A stretch of DNA of 35,363 nt from a virus. Of this stretch, positions 146 through 27,595 are shown in pieces. The number at the start of each line of letters is the position of its first letter. Within the stretch, counting starts at the first letter, position 1. The DNA lies in IMG/VR virus record IMGVR_UViG_3300024319_000789, positions 1 to 35,363 of that record, one strand, 5' to 3'. The translations under genes were made by a program, and so were the position numbers. Under the pieces are notes generated by a model. That model did no database searches. It saw only the letters and a program-made list of their open reading frames with translations, and was not told where the DNA came from.

Positions 146-2092
146 ATGTTATTCGCGATTCTCACATTACTAGTCGCTTTATCTATATCGGCGATTGCCG
201 CCTATTATAGTATCGTTGGACTAGCCGCAATTTTTGCCGCCGCAGTAATGCCTATTATTCTTATGGGTGCAGTACTTGAGGTAGGTAAAATTGTCAGTAC
301 AGTTTGGTTACACACCTTCTGGAAAAAAGCACCACTCTTAACTAGGACATATCTTAGTTCAGCAGTATTCATATTAATGTTTATTACAAGCATGGGTATC
401 TTTGGATTCCTCAGTAAAAGTCATATTCAACAAACAGCACAATCACAAGATCAAGTTGCAAAGATTGAAGTTATCAAAGGAAATATTGAAAGATCTAATA
501 GCAAGATTGATAGATGGTTACAAGAAGTTGAAAGACTTAGTACAGGTACAAATACAAGAGTAGACACATTAGTTGATAAAGAACAAAAGATACTAGATAA
601 TTTATATGCTCGTATTGACAAAGAAAAAAGTGATGCAAGAAAGCAAGCCGATAAAAATATACAACTACAAAACGATCGTATCAGTCAAGCTCGTCAACGT
701 AAAGAAGACAATATTAAAAATATTGAGCTAAAGTATCAAAACAGTTTTAGTAGTCAAAAAAAAGCAAAAGAAATTGATCAAGAAAAGAAAAACGAAGTAG
801 GTGTGGCCGCTTCTGCACAACGTGAAATTAGAAAAATACAAGGTGTTCTAAAAGACCAACTTGACGCAATAGATAAAAAGTATTCCGGTCAAGTAAAAGC
901 AATAGCAGATAGAATTGACGATTTAAGAAATCAAACTAATACAAAGACAGATAATATAGATGGTAGAGTAAATGAACTTGAGAATCTTGTATTAGCAGAA
1001 CAAAAAGTAGTTGATGGGTATAGAAAAGACAAAACTGCTATAGAAAGTAGTTACAGACAACTTGAAGCAGAAGTTGGACCAATCAAATACATTGCAGAAT
1101 TTATCTATGGGGAAGATGCTGACCGTAACTTATTAGAAGCGGCAGTACGTTGGGTTATTATAATTATTGTTGCAGTTTTTGACCCACTTGCCATTATGCT
1201 GGTATTAGCCGCCAGTATGCAAATTAGATGGATAAGAGAAGAAAAGCACGGCCCGGAAGCCAAAACTATACGGATTAAGGAACTAGAAATGAAAATAGAA
1301 GAGTATAATGAGTTTTTACAAAAACTTGAAGCAGAGCTCGATAGACTTACACAAGAAGGTGAGGACAAAGATGGTCGTATCACTGAACTTGAAAGTGCTA
1401 TTGAAACAGTTAATGCTGACAAAGATAAAGCAGTAGAAGAACTTGAAAAACTTTTAGAAAAAAACAAAGACAAGTTTGGTGCTATTATTGATGGGCTCAC
1501 AGAAGACATTGGTGAAAACAAAGAAGAAATTAAAACACATAAGCAAACAATAAAAGAATTGAAAGCAACTATTAAGGAACTTGAAAACAAAGAGCCTGAG
1601 ATAAAAGAAGTTGAAGTCGAAGTTGAAAAAATTGTTGAAGATGAAACTAAGATTAAAGCCGCAGATGCACTTCGTAAAGAAAAAGAAGCAGAAGCAAAGG
1701 AATTAGACAAACAAATTAAAGCACGTGATGCCGCAATGGAACGTCTAAATAAAAAGTACAAGTTAGTTGAAAAGCCATTGGCAGAAAAACTTATGCCAAT
1801 AGCAGATGATGATGACGATGATGACGAGATTCCGCCAGCGGCTTTTGGTAGTACTTTTCCAGATAGTCCAAAGAACGGTCAGTTGTTTACTAAAACAGAT
1901 GTGTTTCCACACTCATTGTACAAGTACAATGGTAAGAAATGGATTGATGTTGATAAAAACGGCACAGACAGTTACTTAACAGAAGAATATGTTAGACACT
2001 TAGTAGAAGCAGTTGCTAAAGGTGAAACTGAACTAGAAGATCTTACTGATCAAGAAAAACAAGAAATGACAGAATTTTTATCAAAAGGCTAA
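146..2092 (+). CDS. large membrane-anchored coiled-coil protein
   Basis: A 648-residue protein. Hydrophobic segments lie near residues 1-20, 23-45 and 70-92, then a long charged coiled coil (about 95-310), another membrane segment near 330-355, a second Lys/Glu-rich coiled coil (about 370-540), a run of Asp near 557-563 and a soluble C-terminal part. The overall plan resembles DUF4407-type membrane/coiled-coil proteins, but I could not confirm that family. An in-frame TAG at 140-142 just upstream makes ATG 146 the first possible ATG; no Shine-Dalgarno is visible. It is the first gene after a terminator and promoter and runs into the next gene with 1 base between. Function unknown; a scaffold or envelope-spanning role is inference. 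Confidence 0.8.
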   Translation: MLFAILTLLVALSISAIAAYYSIVGLAAIFAAAVMPIILMGAVLEVGKIVSTVWLHTFWKKAPLLTRTYLSSAVFILMFITSMGIFGFLSKSHIQQTAQSQDQVAKIEVIKGNIERSNSKIDRWLQEVERLSTGTNTRVDTLVDKEQKILDNLYARIDKEKSDARKQADKNIQLQNDRISQARQRKEDNIKNIELKYQNSFSSQKKAKEIDQEKKNEVGVAASAQREIRKIQGVLKDQLDAIDKKYSGQVKAIADRIDDLRNQTNTKTDNIDGRVNELENLVLAEQKVVDGYRKDKTAIESSYRQLEAEVGPIKYIAEFIYGEDADRNLLEAAVRWVIIIIVAVFDPLAIMLVLAASMQIRWIREEKHGPEAKTIRIKELEMKIEEYNEFLQKLEAELDRLTQEGEDKDGRITELESAIETVNADKDKAVEELEKLLEKNKDKFGAIIDGLTEDIGENKEEIKTHKQTIKELKATIKELENKEPEIKEVEVEVEKIVEDETKIKAADALRKEKEAEAKELDKQIKARDAAMERLNKKYKLVEKPLAEKLMPIADDDDDDDEIPPAAFGSTFPDSPKNGQLFTKTDVFPHSLYKYNGKKWIDVDKNGTDSYLTEEYVRHLVEAVAKGETELEDLTDQEKQEMTEFLSKG

Positions 2093-2816: not shown

Positions 2817-2852
2817 AAAATATAAATCTTGCTTATTATAAGGAGAACTAAA

Positions 2853-3299
2853 ATGACAAGAATTACCTCACTGGACTTAAATCCATTCTACCGCAACTCA
2901 ATTGGATTCAATCAACTTTTTGATAGAATTTCAAGTAACATGGAAGCGGCATCACAACAAAATTATCCACCATATAACATTATCCGTAAAGATGATGAAC
3001 ACTACTTTATTGAGATTGCAGCCGCTGGTTTCTTAAAACCAGATATTGCTATTACTATGGAAAACGGTACATTAACTGTAACCGGTGCCCAAACTAAAGA
3101 AGATGTTGATGGTTTAGATGAAGCAGATGGATATGAGTACCTACACAAAGGGCTCGCAAATCGTAACTTTACTAGAACGTTTAATCTTGCTGATTTCGTT
3201 GAAGTAAAGGATGCTAGTTTGAATAATGGAATTTTAAGTATTCACTTAGAAAAAATTATTCCAGACGCAATGAAGCCAAAAACTATTGAAATAAATTAG
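2853..3299 (+). CDS. hsp20: small heat-shock protein, Hsp20/IbpA family
   Basis: 148 residues with the alpha-crystallin fold order: PPYNIIRKDDEHYFIEIAAAG, then MENGTLTVTG, then NRNFTRTFNLADFVEVKDASLNNGILSIHL with the conserved NGIL/ISI core, ending in a short KPKTIEIN tail. Such proteins hold unfolding proteins for refolding in the cytoplasm; T4-type marine phages often carry one. ATG 2853 is chosen because AGGAGA lies 6 bases before it; a TTG 24 bases upstream has no such site. It has its own promoter and structured leader. Confidence 0.93.
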   Translation: MTRITSLDLNPFYRNSIGFNQLFDRISSNMEAASQQNYPPYNIIRKDDEHYFIEIAAAGFLKPDIAITMENGTLTVTGAQTKEDVDGLDEADGYEYLHKGLANRNFTRTFNLADFVEVKDASLNNGILSIHLEKIIPDAMKPKTIEIN

Positions 3300-3377: not shown

Positions 3378-3845
3378 ATGAAACAAAACATTTTCTTTAA
3401 GTGGGTGATCCTCTTGAGTTTTACCTTTTTCTCTTTCTTCGTGTTGTACATGTTTGACATGTGGCAAGCACTATGGAGTGCCGACAAAACAAAAATCAGT
3501 TTTCTTATCCTAGCAATTTGGCTAGTGAGTTCAATCAGTGTACTAGGGTACATACTAAAACCAACAATGTTTAATCTTGACGTATTATGGTTTAGCAGTG
3601 AGAGTTGCATAACTCTTGGCTTAATTGGTACAGTAAGTGGATTCTTAATGATGCTATTTTCAGCATTTGCAGATATCGATGTAAAAAGTACGGAAAGTTT
3701 AACAGAAGCATTAACGTATATGGCAGTGGGAATGAGTACCGCCTTAAGCACTACGTTAGTTGGACTAGCATCGAGCTTACACTTAAAAACACAATTAGTA
3801 TTGATAGAGACAGGAAACAATGATAAGGAACAATCCCAAATATAG
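3378..3845 (+). CDS. ExbB/TolQ/MotA-like proton-channel protein
   Basis: 155 residues with four membrane segments (about 8-26, 39-59, 80-98, 111-134). The third and fourth carry the MotA/TolQ/ExbB signature: LGLIGTVSGF (Thr85) and MAVGMSTALSTTLVGL (Thr125/126), where family members place the polar residues that line the ion path. In this family a pentamer surrounds a dimer of the partner protein and uses the proton gradient to do mechanical work at the envelope. It is much shorter than MotA or ZorA and lacks a long cytoplasmic tail. ATG 3378 gives the conserved start MKQNIFFKW; the longer TTG frame would cross the upstream hairpin. The next gene overlaps by 26 bases and is the likely partner. 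Confidence 0.78.
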   Translation: MKQNIFFKWVILLSFTFFSFFVLYMFDMWQALWSADKTKISFLILAIWLVSSISVLGYILKPTMFNLDVLWFSSESCITLGLIGTVSGFLMMLFSAFADIDVKSTESLTEALTYMAVGMSTALSTTLVGLASSLHLKTQLVLIETGNNDKEQSQI

Positions 3846-4491
3846 TAGCAGTTTTGGATTTATAGATCTGCTATTTAATTTATTAGTAGGGTTTGTATTT
3901 CTGTTTTTTATTGCTTATTTGTTAATTAACCCAATAGCAAAAAAGGGTGTTATTACCCCTCCTGATAAAGTTCTTATTAATGCAACTTGGGAAGACAATA
4001 GTAATGCAGATATTGATCTCTGGATGGAAGATCCTAATGGAAATGTAATGAGTTTCCAAAATAAAACAATTCCTGGTGCTCACTTAGAAAAAGATGACTT
4101 AGGTGAAAGCAATGATGCAATATGGGTCAACGGCCAAAGAGTTGTTTCTCCTATAAACAGTGAAACAATACATATACAAGGTTTGATACCAGGTGATTAT
4201 TATGTTACTATACATGCATATAATCTTCGTAATGAAGGTGCTAAAGAGGTTGATGTTTCATTAAAAACACTTGATCCATATCGTGACAAAGCAAACAGAA
4301 GAATTACACTTATACAAAGTGGACAAGAAATATGTATATGGAAGTTTACTATTAATCAGACACAAAAGATATCTGATGTACAAAATTGTGAAAGACAACT
4401 AGTAGTTGGAAGACTTACACAAGAATATGACCATAGTTTAAACAGACCTAGTAATAACGAACTGCCACCGGCTAACACAAGGATACCATAA
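3820..4491 (+). CDS. ExbD/TolR/MotB-like single-pass partner with periplasmic domain
   Basis: 223 residues. A short cytoplasmic start, then one membrane helix (about 15-37) with Asp16 at its start (FGFIDLLFNLLVGF), placed as the essential Asp of ExbD, TolR, MotB and ZorB. The rest is periplasmic: a beta-rich domain containing NADIDLWMEDPNGNVMSF and IPGDYYVTIHAY, reminiscent of DUF2135/pre-peptidase-like sandwiches, and not the OmpA-type peptidoglycan domain of MotB. It overlaps the ExbB-like gene by 26 bases, the usual coupled arrangement. Channel partnership is inferred from order, topology and the Asp; what the outer domain binds is unknown. Confidence 0.72.
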   Translation: MIRNNPKYSSSFGFIDLLFNLLVGFVFLFFIAYLLINPIAKKGVITPPDKVLINATWEDNSNADIDLWMEDPNGNVMSFQNKTIPGAHLEKDDLGESNDAIWVNGQRVVSPINSETIHIQGLIPGDYYVTIHAYNLRNEGAKEVDVSLKTLDPYRDKANRRITLIQSGQEICIWKFTINQTQKISDVQNCERQLVVGRLTQEYDHSLNRPSNNELPPANTRIP

Positions 4492-4961
4492 TGTTTAATA
4501 TTGAGTTTTTTGATCAATGGTTTTATCATATCGTAGGTTGGCCTTTTATAATAATCTTCTTATTAACTTTAATGTATCTAAGAGTTAATTGGAAAGTAAC
4601 AACACTACTAGTACCTGTTATGTTAGCATGTTTAAGTTGGGTGATGTTTGATTTAGAAAAGACAATGGGTCGTCCGTACTATGCAATGCCACAAGGTAAG
4701 TTTATGTACATACATCATATTGAATCAGGTGATAAAATAGACTTATTAGTGGTTGACAAAGACGGAAGTAGGCTTTATACTATAGATAATAATAAGAACA
4801 CAAGAAAGCAATTGAACAATAGCAAACAAAAAGCAAAAGGTGGAATACCTCAAGAAGGTGAGTTTAAGAAAATGAAAAATAAACTCAGAGGAGGAACTCC
4901 TGGAGAATATGAACTTGTTATACATGATTTGCCCGTACCAAAACATTTGAGAAAAAACTAA
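4491..4961 (+). CDS. membrane protein of the channel cassette
   Basis: 156 residues, not recognised. Two membrane segments (about 15-30 and 36-53), then a soluble part with a basic stretch (KQLNNSKQKAK, KKMKNKLRGG) and a C-terminal GEYELVIHDLPVPK strand. Its ATG shares a base with the upstream stop and its stop abuts ClpS, so it is cotranscribed with the ExbB/ExbD-like pair and may be a third component. Confidence 0.65.
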   Translation: MFNIEFFDQWFYHIVGWPFIIIFLLTLMYLRVNWKVTTLLVPVMLACLSWVMFDLEKTMGRPYYAMPQGKFMYIHHIESGDKIDLLVVDKDGSRLYTIDNNKNTRKQLNNSKQKAKGGIPQEGEFKKMKNKLRGGTPGEYELVIHDLPVPKHLRKN

Positions 4962-5267
4962 ATGACAGATACAAAAGAAATAGTCAAAACTGAAACAAAG
5001 ATAGAGTTCAAAGAACCTAACTTGTGGAAAGTTATTATACTCAATGACGAGATAACAACAATGGAATTTGTACTTGAAGTACTTACTAACTTCTTTGGTT
5101 ATAACGAAGATGGTGCAATGGAAATGACTTTAAAAATACATGAAGATGGAGCGGCAGTAGTTGCAACATATCCTTATGAACTTGCTGAACAAAAAGGTAT
5201 TGAAGTTACACTAGCGGCTAGAACTGATGGTTATCCGTTAGAAGTTCGCATTGAAGAAGACGCCTAA
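4962..5267 (+). CDS. clpS: ClpS, ClpA adaptor of the N-end rule
   Basis: 101 residues with the ClpS core: VIILNDEITTMEFVLEVL (Asn28, Asp29, Met34), NFFGYNEDGAMEMTLKIHEDG (His60) and YPYELAEQKG. These residues form the pocket for bulky N-terminal residues and the surface that docks on ClpA. ClpS delivers such substrates to ClpAP in the cytoplasm. The flexible N-terminus of about 20 residues is present. A phage copy might redirect host proteolysis (inference). Confidence 0.93.
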   Translation: MTDTKEIVKTETKIEFKEPNLWKVIILNDEITTMEFVLEVLTNFFGYNEDGAMEMTLKIHEDGAAVVATYPYELAEQKGIEVTLAARTDGYPLEVRIEEDA

Positions 5268-5343: not shown

Positions 5344-5787
5344 ATGAACTATTGGGAAAAATTATTCCATACATGTGTTTTAGTATGGACAACTGCATTT
5401 TTTATTTCGTTAAGCGGTATTGCTAGTGCAAGTGAAGTTGCAGGTAAAGTTACTAAGCATTACAAAGAAGTAATTACTCAAAATCCTTATACTGTTGAAG
5501 TATGCAGGAAAGTTGCAGTAAGTGGCGATAAAACAGGTGATACACTTAAAGGTGCAATCATTGGTGGTATCATTGGAAACAATGTTACTAAGAACGTAGA
5601 CAATGGCGGAGCCGTTGGTGCAATCATTGGTGGACTTATAGGTAATCAGAATAGTAATGCAACAGGCGGAACTAAAACAGTTTGCGAAGTTGAAACACGT
5701 TATAACGAAACAAAACAAACTGTGTATAGCCATAGTACAATAGAATTTACAGTTGACGGTTATGTCCATAGACTTAGATTTAAGTAA
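5344..5787 (+). CDS. secreted glycine-zipper protein
   Basis: 147 residues. A signal peptide (hydrophobic 10-24, cleavage after ASA29) with no lipobox Cys, then two glycine-zipper stretches, KGAIIGGIIGNN (about 69-80) and VGAIIGGLIGNQ (about 91-102), as in glycine-zipper 2TM envelope proteins such as the 17-kDa surface antigen. Two Cys in the mature part could form a disulfide. TAGGAGA precedes the ATG. Likely inserts in or associates with the envelope; role in infection unknown. Confidence 0.75.
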   Translation: MNYWEKLFHTCVLVWTTAFFISLSGIASASEVAGKVTKHYKEVITQNPYTVEVCRKVAVSGDKTGDTLKGAIIGGIIGNNVTKNVDNGGAVGAIIGGLIGNQNSNATGGTKTVCEVETRYNETKQTVYSHSTIEFTVDGYVHRLRFK

Positions 5788-18010: not shown

Positions 18011-18760
18011 ATGGCCGAATTTACAAATGTACTACAAGATAGACACACAACTTTTGCTTGGGACCAAGATAGAGTACCAAGTGAAGAATTATTACTAGAA
18101 GTGTTAAACGAAGTTTATCAGCATGTACCTAGTAAGAACTTAATGTTCTCATATCAAATACGTTTACTTAAAAACGACAATGATGAAATTCGTAAAAAAG
18201 TAATGACTATATGTCAACGTAATGCTAGTCATACACTTGAAGAAGATAGAGGAAACCCACAAGTACTTGCTCCGTGGTTAATTGGATTTAATGCAAGATG
18301 GGTTAGTGATTTAGAAAAACGTTATGAACATGATTCAAAACGTGGTGAGTTAAACGGACTTGGTACAAATCAAAGACGTACTGGTGCATCAGATAAAATC
18401 ACAGAAGATGAAGCAAAGTTTTTAAGTGCCGGACAAACACAAAACGAAAACATTGAAATTGGAATTGCAAGTGCATTCATTATGTTAGCAATGGCTAATA
18501 GAGGAATACAAACAGGCATGTGTCAAAATATTTGTAGAGACTACAAGTATGCAGAAGAATTATTTCAAGTAGATGACGATGAACGTGGTATGGACTTTAG
18601 ATTTATTATGGGTGTAGGATACGGTAAAGACATTGATACACATCATGAATATTACGATCCACGTATAGGAAAAGACAAGAAAATTCCTTTTCCTCCAGCA
18701 ATGGTAGAAAAAGTCTATCCAAGACCTCCAATGGAAGATATTATTAGAGTCATAAGATGA
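18011..18760 (+). CDS. nitroreductase-like flavoprotein
   Basis: 249 residues with the FMN-dependent nitroreductase order: an N-terminal LQDRHTTFAWDQDRVPSEELL, a VPSKNLMFSYQ segment, IEIGIASAFIMLAMANRGIQ then GMCQNI in the centre, and FIMGVGYGKD near the end. Such enzymes use NAD(P)H to reduce nitro, quinone or similar groups, and relatives modify carrier-bound substrates. It is followed with a 4-base overlap by an acyl carrier protein, so a thioester-bound substrate is possible. The substrate is unknown. Confidence 0.75.
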   Translation: MAEFTNVLQDRHTTFAWDQDRVPSEELLLEVLNEVYQHVPSKNLMFSYQIRLLKNDNDEIRKKVMTICQRNASHTLEEDRGNPQVLAPWLIGFNARWVSDLEKRYEHDSKRGELNGLGTNQRRTGASDKITEDEAKFLSAGQTQNENIEIGIASAFIMLAMANRGIQTGMCQNICRDYKYAEELFQVDDDERGMDFRFIMGVGYGKDIDTHHEYYDPRIGKDKKIPFPPAMVEKVYPRPPMEDIIRVIR

Positions 18761-19192: not shown

Positions 19193-20422
19193 TTGAGCAC
19201 CACATCTTTTTGTTCTGCACTTTGGTGGAACGTATTTTATAAAGAGTTTCCAATAGCAAGTATGAAACCTTGTTGTAATTGGGAAGGGCCAAGCATAACA
19301 TATGGCAAGGATGCTAAACCTGAAGATCTTATAAATCACCCTGACATGATAAAGTACAGAGAAATGTCGTTAGTGGGAAAATGGCCAGACGGTTGTATTA
19401 GATGCAAAACAAGACAAGAGCAAGGCCTAAAAAGTTATAGAGATACTGAAAATAAAAGAGCAAACGTTACTTCGCCAAGACAGTTAAGAGAAGCAACACC
19501 TGAAATAAGAACAATAGATTATCGTGCTAGTAACTTATGTAATCTAAAATGTAGAATGTGTAATCCGGCAGAGAGCTCGCAGTTATATTCAGAAATGAAA
19601 AAACACCCGGAGTTACAAGAACACTTTTCACATCCTGTTATGTCTCCTACAATGCTTGAACTAAGTGATGCTTATGAAAGTAAGGAAATTAATGAAAGTG
19701 TTGCTAATCATGAATTGTTTAGTAAGTTAGAAGAATTAAAAATATTTGGTGGTGAACCAAGTATTGATGAAAGTGTACATAACTTATTAGATTGGGCAAT
19801 TGATAACGATTATGCTAAAAATTTAAGACTTCGTTATACTACAAATGCAACAAATACCAATCGTAAATGGATGGACTATCACACACATTTTAAAAATTAT
19901 AATGTTAGTTTTAGTTTAGATGGTGCAGGCAAAACTTATGAATACATTAGAACACCAGCCAACTGGAGCACAGTTAGAAAATGCTTACTAAATTTTGTAG
20001 CAATGAGAGAAGCAATACCTAATAGACGTATTAGAAAACAATGTCATTATTCAGCAAACATAGTTTATAGTTTGTGGAACTGTTTTACAATTAATCATTG
20101 GCATGATGAACTAATTAATTTGCTAGATGATAATAATATTGGATATAATCTTGCAATTAGTTTTAGAAATAACCAAGCAGTCCATTTACTTCCGCAAAAG
20201 TATAAAGACATTATTTTAGAAAGTGCTGATAAGTTACCTGATAGTAAATTTAAAACATCAGTATTTCAACTAACAAATAAGCCTACACCAGATGACTGGC
20301 AAAATCAATTAAGAAACTTCTTTACTTTTAGTCAAAAGTATGATATAATAAGACATACTAATATTTTTAACCTAAGTCCTATATATGAGGACTTGTATAA
20401 TTATGTAAGGAAAGATCAATGA
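19193..20422 (+). CDS. radical SAM protein, twitch/SPASM-like (first copy)
   Basis: 409 residues. The core has NLCNLKCRMCNP with Cys116, Cys120 and Cys123 for the SAM-bound 4Fe-4S cluster, then IFGGEPSID for SAM. Before it, extra Cys (SMKPCCNW; GCIRCKTRQ) look like an auxiliary cluster or zinc site. Such enzymes make a 5'-deoxyadenosyl radical and modify peptides, nucleotides or sugars. Starts at TTG 19193 with AGGAT 7 bases before; no upstream ATG is available between it and tRNA-Gly. Substrate unknown. Confidence 0.88.
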   Translation: MSTTSFCSALWWNVFYKEFPIASMKPCCNWEGPSITYGKDAKPEDLINHPDMIKYREMSLVGKWPDGCIRCKTRQEQGLKSYRDTENKRANVTSPRQLREATPEIRTIDYRASNLCNLKCRMCNPAESSQLYSEMKKHPELQEHFSHPVMSPTMLELSDAYESKEINESVANHELFSKLEELKIFGGEPSIDESVHNLLDWAIDNDYAKNLRLRYTTNATNTNRKWMDYHTHFKNYNVSFSLDGAGKTYEYIRTPANWSTVRKCLLNFVAMREAIPNRRIRKQCHYSANIVYSLWNCFTINHWHDELINLLDDNNIGYNLAISFRNNQAVHLLPQKYKDIILESADKLPDSKFKTSVFQLTNKPTPDDWQNQLRNFFTFSQKYDIIRHTNIFNLSPIYEDLYNYVRKDQ

Positions 20423-23079: not shown

Positions 23080-24129
23080 ATGTTCAAGCAAGATGTAAAA
23101 AGAGTTGGCTTTGCATGTAAGTATATGCATCCTGATCAAACACAAAAGCCTAAAATACTAAAAGAAATACAATACAAGTATACAGAAGCAATGACTACTG
23201 TGGCTTGGCTTAAACGTCAAACTACTGAAGTTGCTGAGCAAAAGATGTGGGATATTATGGAACATAATATCATTAGTATGTACAACTTGATTGAATGGGT
23301 AGGTAACCAGCCAGAACATCTACGTATGGTACGTTTAGGTAGTAATCAGTTGCCTATGTACACACAACCTGACTTTAGATACTTTTGGCAAAAGCCAGAT
23401 GTGAGAGAAGTATGTGCAAAAGGCTATGCACGAGCAGGTGAAATTGCTAGAAAGTTAGATGTACGAGTAAGTATGCACCCTGGACAATTTTGTGTCCTTG
23501 CAAGTGACAATCCAGACATAGTAGAACGTAGTATAGAGGAGTTTGAATATCATGCTGACATTATCCGATGGATGGGCTTCGGCCGCAAATTCCAGGACTT
23601 TAAGTGCAACGTCCATATCTCCGGTCGTCAGGGTCCAGCCGGTGTCAGAGCTGTCTTGCCAAGATTATCTCCGGAGGCGAGAAATACTATCACAATTGAA
23701 AATGACGAAAACAAATGGGGTATTGAGGCGTCGCTCGAACTTGCCAAAGACGTACCACTTGTGCTTGACATACACCATCACTGGGTCAATTCAGGAGAGT
23801 ATATTGAACCCACCGACGATAGATGTTCTCGCATAATTGATTCGTGGCGTGGAGTACGTCCAGCAATGCACTACAGTCAGTGCAGAATTGATTACTTAGT
23901 TGATCATCCTACTAACGTAAAGCCTGATATGGAAACACTACTTGAAACTGGTTACAAGAAACAAAAACTTCGTGCCCATAGTGACTACATGTGGAATGAT
24001 GCATGTAATGATTGGGCTATACAGTTCAATGATAAGTTTGATATTATGGTAGAAGCAAAGTGCAAGAATCTTGCAAGTAAGCAACTAGCAGAGACAAAAA
24101 AAGCGACTCTAGTAAATAGAGCCGCTTAA
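23080..24129 (+). CDS. uvdE: UV damage endonuclease UvdE/UvsE
   Basis: 349 residues with the UVDE barrel motifs: RVGFACKYM, MVRLGSNQLPMY, SMHPGQF (His133), CNVHISGRQG (His179), TITIENDENKWG (Glu207), LVLDIHHHW (His232-234) and HYSQCR (His264), the metal ligands of the family. It nicks DNA 5' of UV photoproducts, useful in sunlit water. It has its own promoter. Bases about 23565-23835 are clearly richer in G+C and use other codons than the flanks, while the protein stays intact. The last codons overlap the terminator of the convergent gene. Confidence 0.95.
   Translation: MFKQDVKRVGFACKYMHPDQTQKPKILKEIQYKYTEAMTTVAWLKRQTTEVAEQKMWDIMEHNIISMYNLIEWVGNQPEHLRMVRLGSNQLPMYTQPDFRYFWQKPDVREVCAKGYARAGEIARKLDVRVSMHPGQFCVLASDNPDIVERSIEEFEYHADIIRWMGFGRKFQDFKCNVHISGRQGPAGVRAVLPRLSPEARNTITIENDENKWGIEASLELAKDVPLVLDIHHHWVNSGEYIEPTDDRCSRIIDSWRGVRPAMHYSQCRIDYLVDHPTNVKPDMETLLETGYKKQKLRAHSDYMWNDACNDWAIQFNDKFDIMVEAKCKNLASKQLAETKKATLVNRAA
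24096..24125 (-). terminator. terminator of the reverse-strand gene, inside the uvdE end
   Basis: On the reverse strand, GCG-G-CTCTA (from 24125) pairs with TAGAG-T-CGC (to 24103), loop TTTAC, then seven T. It ends the gene at 24148-24456 while the same bases code for the tail of UvdE. Confidence 0.82.
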
Positions 24130-26109: not shown

Positions 26110-26558
26110 TGGAAATTAAACATACAACATTAACACAAGTTGATACAGTAATTGAAACTTATAAAAATACAGAAGGTGTAGACATAAATTATGTTTGTAC
26201 AACTGACTTGGTTACTACTGATCATCCAGTAGATGTGTTCTACAGAAAAGAACCTCATCCTCAGTTTGGCAATAACTACTTTGGTTTGTTAATCAAAAAC
26301 GATGCTATTGAAATTGTTAATGCAGACATGGTTACTAATTTACATTTTGGTATGGTAGAAAATGATGATGGATTACTTGAATACAGTAGAAGTGCCAATG
26401 ACGCAAAAGCATTTAAAAATGGAAATACTATTTCAGGTGGTCGTGTAAGAATTAAAAGTAATGCACCTTGTGACATTTTTAAAATAGTTGATGGCAACTT
26501 ACAACTAGAAGCAAAGTTTGACGAGTACAACACAGTTGATGGTACTGAAGAACAGTAA
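26109..26558 (+). CDS. hypothetical protein, 149 aa
   Basis: Starts at ATG 26109, sharing a base with the previous stop (TAATG). Mixed alpha/beta, with FGNNYFGLLIKNDAIEIVNA. No motif recognised. It runs into the second radical SAM gene with the same TAATG coupling. Confidence 0.68.
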   Translation: MEIKHTTLTQVDTVIETYKNTEGVDINYVCTTDLVTTDHPVDVFYRKEPHPQFGNNYFGLLIKNDAIEIVNADMVTNLHFGMVENDDGLLEYSRSANDAKAFKNGNTISGGRVRIKSNAPCDIFKIVDGNLQLEAKFDEYNTVDGTEEQ

Positions 26559-27595
26559 TGTCAACTTGCACCTATGCTAATAAAGGTTTATGTATATTAC
26601 CACATGGTGATACAAGTCCTTGTTGTGCAATAAACGGTGAAAACTTAAAACCATTTACAAGTTTTGAACAATTTTATAAAGACCCTGCATTTACTGAAGT
26701 AAGGCAGTTTAACAACAATAAAAACATATTAGATAGTGTATGGTGTGATACTTGCAAGTATAGTGAACAAAGCAATCACATAAGTCTTCGTAAACGTAGT
26801 TTTAACAATCCTATACAAGATCAAACAGATGAAGTAAAGTTAAGATTACTTGATATTAGTTTTGGTAATACTTGTAATTTAGATTGTGTTATGTGTTGTA
26901 GTGCTTATAGTAGTAAATGGGCAAGTACACATGGAAAAATTAAAGAAGTTAGTGAAATAACAGGAAATGATACAACTCCAAAATCCAACACACTAAGTTA
27001 CGAACATATTGATGCATTGCTCGAAGCATCAGGTGACTTAGAACGTGTAATTATTAAAGGCGGTGAACCTTTATACGATAAAAAGTCATTATACTTTCTT
27101 GAAAGATTTAAAAAATATAATAGTACTGCAAATGTTAATATGGTTACTAACTTAACAATGTTAAATGAGCAAAAGTTAGACATGTTAAAAACATACAACA
27201 AGATGAATATTATTACAAGTTGTGATGGCATTGGAAAAGTGTATGAATGGATACGTGGATACAGTTGGGACAAACTAGAACAAAACATTGACAAGTGTAT
27301 TGATAACGGTTTAAGAATTAGTGTACAATTTACTATTACTGCATATAACATTGCACAATTAGAAACAATGTATCAACATTATAAAAACAAAGGTATTGGT
27401 GTAAATTTTATATTTGCAAATGAATCGTGGCTACACTATTCAAATGTTGGCAACACAAAGTTACGAAGGGTAATTGAAGAATTAACTGCACCTGTTACTA
27501 TTGAAATGCAAGACCCGTGGAATGCAAAAAGTTTTGCTAATTACACATCTATTATGAATAAACAACGTGGATTTAATTGGGCAGATATATGTTAA
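26558..27595 (+). CDS. radical SAM protein, twitch/SPASM-like (second copy)
   Basis: 345 residues. GNTCNLDCVMCCS gives Cys106, Cys110 and Cys113 of the radical SAM cluster; IIKGGEPLYD follows as the GGE motif and ITSCDGIGKVYEWIRG as a later core strand. The first 70 residues carry C4, C12, PCC22-23 and VWCDTC (C63, C66), an auxiliary-cluster-like domain also seen in the copy at 19193. Substrate unknown. Coupled by TAATG to the gene before and overlapping the next by 7 bases. Confidence 0.88.
   Translation: MSTCTYANKGLCILPHGDTSPCCAINGENLKPFTSFEQFYKDPAFTEVRQFNNNKNILDSVWCDTCKYSEQSNHISLRKRSFNNPIQDQTDEVKLRLLDISFGNTCNLDCVMCCSAYSSKWASTHGKIKEVSEITGNDTTPKSNTLSYEHIDALLEASGDLERVIIKGGEPLYDKKSLYFLERFKKYNSTANVNMVTNLTMLNEQKLDMLKTYNKMNIITSCDGIGKVYEWIRGYSWDKLEQNIDKCIDNGLRISVQFTITAYNIAQLETMYQHYKNKGIGVNFIFANESWLHYSNVGNTKLRRVIEELTAPVTIEMQDPWNAKSFANYTSIMNKQRGFNWADIC

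Follow-up and report, generated by a model that had tools for sequence, protein, structure and literature searches.

A three-gene phage and proteobacterial cassette that probably encodes an ion-driven membrane motor of the MotA/TolQ/ExbB superfamily

Introduction

Ion motors of the 5:2 type form a small family whose jobs include swimming, gliding, outer-membrane transport and upkeep, and anti-phage defense. A conserved aspartate lies in the single helix of MotB and TolR (PMC9389320), and the uncharacterized generic ion transporters are highly diverse (PMC12505986). The host TolQR pair is used by phage for entry (PMC10424213), and Zorya is an anti-phage defense motor (PMC11890865). Within the open literature searched, no description was found of the gene trio considered here or of its phage form, nor any paper linking DUF2135 with MotA or a phage-encoded TolQ with superinfection exclusion. 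The DNA analyzed is the marine phage record IMGVR_UViG_3300024319_000789 at its full length of 35,363 bases, referred to below as the window.

The Cassette and Its Surroundings

Three plus-strand open reading frames, overlapping or abutting as first described, make up the cassette. Gene A (3378-3845, 155 amino acids) encodes a MotA/TolQ/ExbB-like channel subunit in a short form without a cytoplasmic insert; gene B (3820-4491, 223 amino acids), which overlaps the end of A, encodes a putative axle subunit with a single transmembrane (TM) helix and a periplasmic beta-sandwich; gene C (4491-4961, 156 amino acids) encodes a protein predicted to have two TM helices and a small, probably periplasmic alpha/beta domain. 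The cassette is preceded by genes for an S21-like ribosomal protein (2467-2718) and Hsp20 (2829-3299), and followed by genes for a ClpS adaptor (4962-5267) and a glycine-zipper protein (5344-5787); host-type genes thus cluster on both sides of it.

The first gene of the window (146-2092) encodes a membrane and coiled-coil protein of 648 amino acids. A family of phage virion proteins matches its C-terminal part, and Pelagibacter phage Mosig has a partial relative. Since this gene is partly shared with a Pelagibacter phage, and since the closest relatives of the window DNA ligase are ligases of Roseobacter and Rhodobacter phages (about 149 kb), the host of the phage is probably an alphaproteobacterium. 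Many metabolic genes are present in the window; two radical SAM proteins (19202-20419 and 26558-27595) and a UvdE-type endonuclease (23080-24129) were also observed, together with a weak hit to the Pfam Cytotoxic domain, below threshold (18011-18760, 3.3e-4), that probably carries no weight.

Gene A, the Predicted Channel Subunit

Assignment of the cassette to the MotA/TolQ/ExbB motor class is well supported by profile matches and residue conservation in A. The window protein matched Pfam family PF01618 (MotA_ExbB) with an E-value of 1.4e-6 and 28.5 bits (curated cut-off 22.9), the match spanning only the TM3-TM4 half. Each of six related Rhizobium/Sinorhizobium phage genomes contained one PF01618 match, always in the gene upstream of the B homolog; the cut-off was passed in three of the six, the other three matches being weaker. 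The family relationship suspected in the initial annotation was thus recovered above the cut-off and again in related phages, and PF01618 was detected at E<=1e-3 in 65 of 72 A homologs. When the PDB was searched (E<=10) with a profile of nine A proteins from phages, all 18 distinct chains retrieved were MotA, TolQ, ExbB or ZorA, at modest E-values (best 0.001).

The two channel motifs initially noted in A are conserved across the 72 homologs. The TM3 motif LGLIGTVSG (residues 80-88, plus strand 3615-3641) contains G84, found in 72/72 sequences, G81 (71/72), G88 (70/72) and T85 (65/72). The TM4 motif STTLVGL (plus strand 3747-3767, within ALSTTLVGL at residues 122-130) contains T125, T126 and G129; position 126 is Thr in 69 of the 72 sequences and Ser in the remaining three, and G129 is kept in 67. 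Hydropathy analysis showed TM1 to TM3 clearly and TM4 weakly in the window protein, TM4 being clear in its relatives, and the net charges of the loops are compatible with a MotA-like topology with four TM helices and both termini inside.

Gene B, the Candidate Axle and Its Beta-Sandwich

In the AlphaFold2 model of B (mean pLDDT 88.2), one TM helix (residues 11-36) is followed by a confidently modeled beta-sandwich (residues 51-188, plus strand 3970-4383). The proposal of a one-helix partner with an aspartate at the helix start holds for 70 of 75 B homologs; the other five have the Asp about three residues earlier, and the rest of the helix is nearly free of charges in the homolog alignment. 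In the window this candidate ion-binding residue is Asp16 (codon 3865-3867, plus strand). The five shifted variants (L071, L078, L079, L135 and L155), at least four of which have a Lys inside the helix, could differ in their ion coupling.

The beta-sandwich had been described as DUF2135-like, and at the profile level this stands: in an hhalign comparison with E. coli YfaP, taken to represent DUF2135, the B domain aligned at E=1.8e-5, against a best value of 1e-3 among 100 shuffles of YfaP. The Pfam family itself (PF09906) gave weak matches in 11 of the 75 B members (best 8.8e-4, with the family cut-off not reached) and no match to the window protein; a search for DUF2135 in a 36-genome sample returned no hit. 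A Foldseek search with the B domain found PDB entries 2qng (E=1.6e-4) and 2qz7 (E=1.7e-4), both TerD-family proteins, at probability 1.00 and with TM-scores on the target of 0.54 and 0.51; no other PDB fold match fell below 1e-3. Sequence homology to TerD was rejected (hhalign E=0.06, probability 0.9%), and the likeness is one of fold only. B showed no match to ExbD/TolR or MotB profiles: neither Pfam nor NCBIfam placed it in these families or with the OmpA-like C-terminal domain, and the predicted fold is a TerD-like sandwich. Within the homolog alignment D64, D66, D92, D93, E115 and E170 are invariant or nearly so, and these acidic residues of the sandwich could bind a metal ion.

Gene C, the Third Membrane Protein

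The AlphaFold2 model of C (pLDDT 86.8) contains TM helices at residues 4-29 and 34-58 and an alpha/beta domain at residues 70-146; the loop between the helices is positively charged, and the C-terminal domain is therefore predicted to lie outside. No Pfam family covers C; scattered weak hits of a few members, to DUF4131 and others, were judged to be chance matches. The fold search yielded nothing below E=0.28 and no convincing match, and tblastn with C alone found nothing in phages. C was accordingly followed across loci by gene position combined with profiles. Its coupling to the A-B pair, part of the initial annotation, is borne out by its gene following B at 86 of the 90 loci compared.

Gene Order and Distribution

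Among these 90 distinct loci, A lies upstream of B on the same strand in 88; two misses in the A-B-C count come from one contig that starts inside B. The survey of relatives therefore finds not only the pair but also the third gene kept together at nearly all loci, even where a GIY-YIG or HNH homing endonuclease gene stands between the members, and this conserved order excludes chance association. One locus, L135, has two copies of C.

With tblastn, B homologs were found in 26 phage records, all from Rhizobium or Sinorhizobium phages, and they occur as well in IMG/VR contigs, in bacterial genomes and, as two copies, in Azospirillum chromids. The phage carriers include both a temperate group (16-3) and T4-like phages. 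The cassette adjoins genes of early or middle type in these phages (DNA metabolism, chaperone, ClpS) and is not placed among lysis or structural genes. In phage records its genes carry either a number or the label hypothetical; in phage 16-3, a laboratory phage of Sinorhizobium meliloti, they are p038, p040 and p042. A PHROG search with the 16-3, N34 and AF3 copies gave no match.

The view of the cassette as a phage-owned motor has to be revised. Gammaproteobacterial genomes had a strong B match (E below 1e-30) in 39 of 369 cases and alphaproteobacterial genomes in 55 of 385, the latter count taking in the prophage-bearing centre genome; most of these matches represent stand-alone chromosomal operons. 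Where longer contexts of cellular loci were examined, the surroundings looked chromosomal, with no recognized phage genes, and in alphaproteobacteria the A-B-C trio often stands alone. The trio is a widespread uncharacterized bacterial operon, not a phage invention, of which phages carry a shortened form.

Proposed Mechanism

We read the cassette as a probable ion-driven motor of the inner membrane, made of three parts, belonging to the MotA/TolQ/ExbB superfamily and captured by phages from a bacterial operon. By analogy with the superfamily, from which we infer 5:2 assembly, rotation and ion flow, five A subunits would form a ring around a B dimer acting as the axle; ions would bind at Asp16 of B and exit past TM3 and TM4 of A, and every step would turn or tilt the dimer. 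In the periplasm the B sandwiches would in turn move against C, which would pass the force on to the envelope. A role in the envelope during phage infection is plausible, at somewhat less than even confidence: more weakly than the motor itself, we infer use early in infection, when the phage may guard or remodel the host envelope, either to exclude other phages or to keep the envelope intact.

Associated Genes and a Possible Role in Exclusion

The main hint of a machine working toward the outer membrane comes from cellular loci, since some of them, in gammaproteobacteria and in small-genome alphaproteobacteria, encode a DUF3108-like lipoprotein of outer-membrane type directly after C (L124, 9337-10056; L131, 8985-9689; L152, 9358-10068; and others). 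In four gammaproteobacterial loci (L118, L120, L121 and L130) the gene after C encodes a VWA-FHA membrane protein, and in three of these four, genes for an L,D-transpeptidase-like protein and a DUF302 protein precede A. Limited to these few gammaproteobacteria, the VWA-FHA gene was rejected as a general partner of the cassette.

Many phages carry a secreted trypsin-like serine protease (Trypsin_2) beside the cassette. Its gene (p036 in phage 16-3 itself) lies directly upstream of A in several 16-3-like phages and the marine contigs L041 and L042, falls within about 2 kb downstream of the cassette in N3_13, N3_19 and L020, and adjoins or neighbors it also in the viral contigs L024-L032 and L037; its coordinates are 2160-3059 in L004, 2511-3158 in L006, 7510-8202 in L001, 7014-7670 in L020, 1550-2278 in L024 and 1218-2339 in L042. 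Every complete copy retains the catalytic His and Ser of the triad, and the Asp is sometimes Glu. No such gene was found beside the cassette in the window, in N34, AF3 or I1_18, at the other remaining phage loci, or at the cellular loci examined.

An alternative is superinfection exclusion or inter-phage defense by a Zorya-like logic, in which the motor would sense or act at the envelope as another phage enters and, in many phages, the protease would be the effector. Such a function overlaps with the envelope role proposed above and makes it specific. Conservation of the catalytic His and Ser next to so many phage cassettes, and nowhere among the cellular ones examined, is consistent with it, as are the occurrence of the cassette in both temperate and T4-like phages and the weak similarity of A to ZorA (1.8e-5). 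Against it stand the phages without a nearby protease, the window among them, and the stand-alone cellular operons without an effector gene; moreover, A has no long ZorA tail, B has no peptidoglycan-binding domain, and ZorC, ZorD and ZorE were not seen among the neighbors. We regard exclusion as the specific function as unlikely, and retain the broader reading of a captured envelope motor.

The Shortened Phage Form

The length of the A proteins examined separates the two forms: 129-160 amino acids in every phage copy, 173-271 in every cellular one. The insert absent from every phage copy lies between TM2 and TM3, on the cytoplasmic side in the predicted topology. This loss suggests that the phage form is a motor without a cytoplasmic partner or regulation. 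A tree computed from 74 B proteins (23 phage rows against the other 51), unrooted and with some long branches, rejected a single phage clade (AU p=1.7e-6). Because the phage B proteins are not one clade, the cassette was transferred between cells and phages at least twice; the simplest reading, though of an unrooted tree, is that phages were the receivers and that the insert was lost repeatedly.

Repeated acquisition with the same loss, as suggested by the tree, together with the consistently missing insert, would also suit a takeover device, in which the shortened phage A would enter the host's own A-B-C complex and deregulate or poison that motor. This is improbable: the phages carry three genes and not A alone, the operon occurs in only about 11-14% of the sampled genomes, and window B is about 24-38% identical to cellular B, which makes mixed rings doubtful. 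Retention of the channel residues with loss of the cytoplasmic parts could also describe a controlled leak of ions, which would set the membrane potential and act in lysis timing without transmitting force; the chance of this is slight, since a folded, highly conserved periplasmic B domain and a conserved C would then be needless, and since the cassette does not lie beside holin, endolysin or spanin genes. Equally remote is a set of Ton-like auxiliary metabolic genes energizing outer-membrane nutrient uptake during infection: ExbB, labeled a TonB-system energizer, is reported as a possible auxiliary gene of chronic deep-sea phages (PMC11361711), and the window has its many metabolic genes, but no TonB-like protein and no TonB-dependent transporter were recognized among the genes examined, and C with its two helices and small domain is unlike TonB.

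The captured three-part motor is thus the preferred reading. A broader version, which we put forward tentatively and as more doubtful than the motor, would have an as yet undescribed three-component ion motor, with an A ring, a B axle bearing the sandwich and a periplasmic C, that is widespread in alpha- and gammaproteobacteria and was acquired by phages more than once. Every acquisition would have removed the cytoplasmic control domain, a secreted protease would often be linked to the motor, and the resulting ion-powered periplasmic machine would target the envelope of the host or rival phages. As a further branch of the ion motors, the A-B-C genes would supply a missing piece of envelope biology: the periplasmic head differs, the third protein is constant, and about one in ten of the sampled proteobacterial genomes has the set. 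The cassettes of several phage lineages, always shortened, offer a minimal motor of natural origin in which the function could be tested, for example that of phage 16-3.

Comparison with Known Systems

An ExbB-type protein in phage genomes has been noted before, in chronic phages of the deep sea (PMC11361711); there, in the accessible part of the report, it is presented as part of a TonB system, and no A-B-C cassette is described. The ZorAB pair of Zorya (PMC11890865) is an ion motor from the MotA/TolQ/ExbB superfamily, and A weakly matches ZorA profiles. These profiles span 461-683 positions, compared to the 155 amino acids of A, and membership in Zorya was rejected; the cassette differs further in the absence of the long ZorA tail, of the peptidoglycan-binding ZorB domain and of nuclease effectors, and in being phage-carried here. 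PADLOC profiles gave no match for B or C, and the window neighbors are Hsp20 and ClpS.

The B domain shares a profile alignment with the DUF2135 protein YfaP and a fold with TerD (2qng, 2qz7); it differs from both in being fused to a predicted motor axle helix, and has no sequence similarity to TerD. Like the Tol-Pal system (TolQRA-Pal), the cassette joins a further membrane protein to a motor pair, and some bacteria also have a lipoprotein of outer-membrane type encoded downstream; yet C, with its two helices and small domain, is not TolA, the lipoprotein is DUF3108-like and not Pal, and neither TolB nor CpoB was seen in the gene blocks of the cassette.

The closest counterparts are ExbBD and TolQR (PF01618; PMC9389320, PMC12505986). 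A has the TM3/TM4 channel motifs and the family profile, B has one TM helix with an Asp at the corresponding place, and the genes are adjacent with A before B. In contrast to these pairs, A is short for the family and has no cytoplasmic domain, B bears a DUF2135/TerD-like sandwich in place of an ExbD/TolR or OmpA-type domain, and a third membrane protein, C, almost always accompanies A and B.
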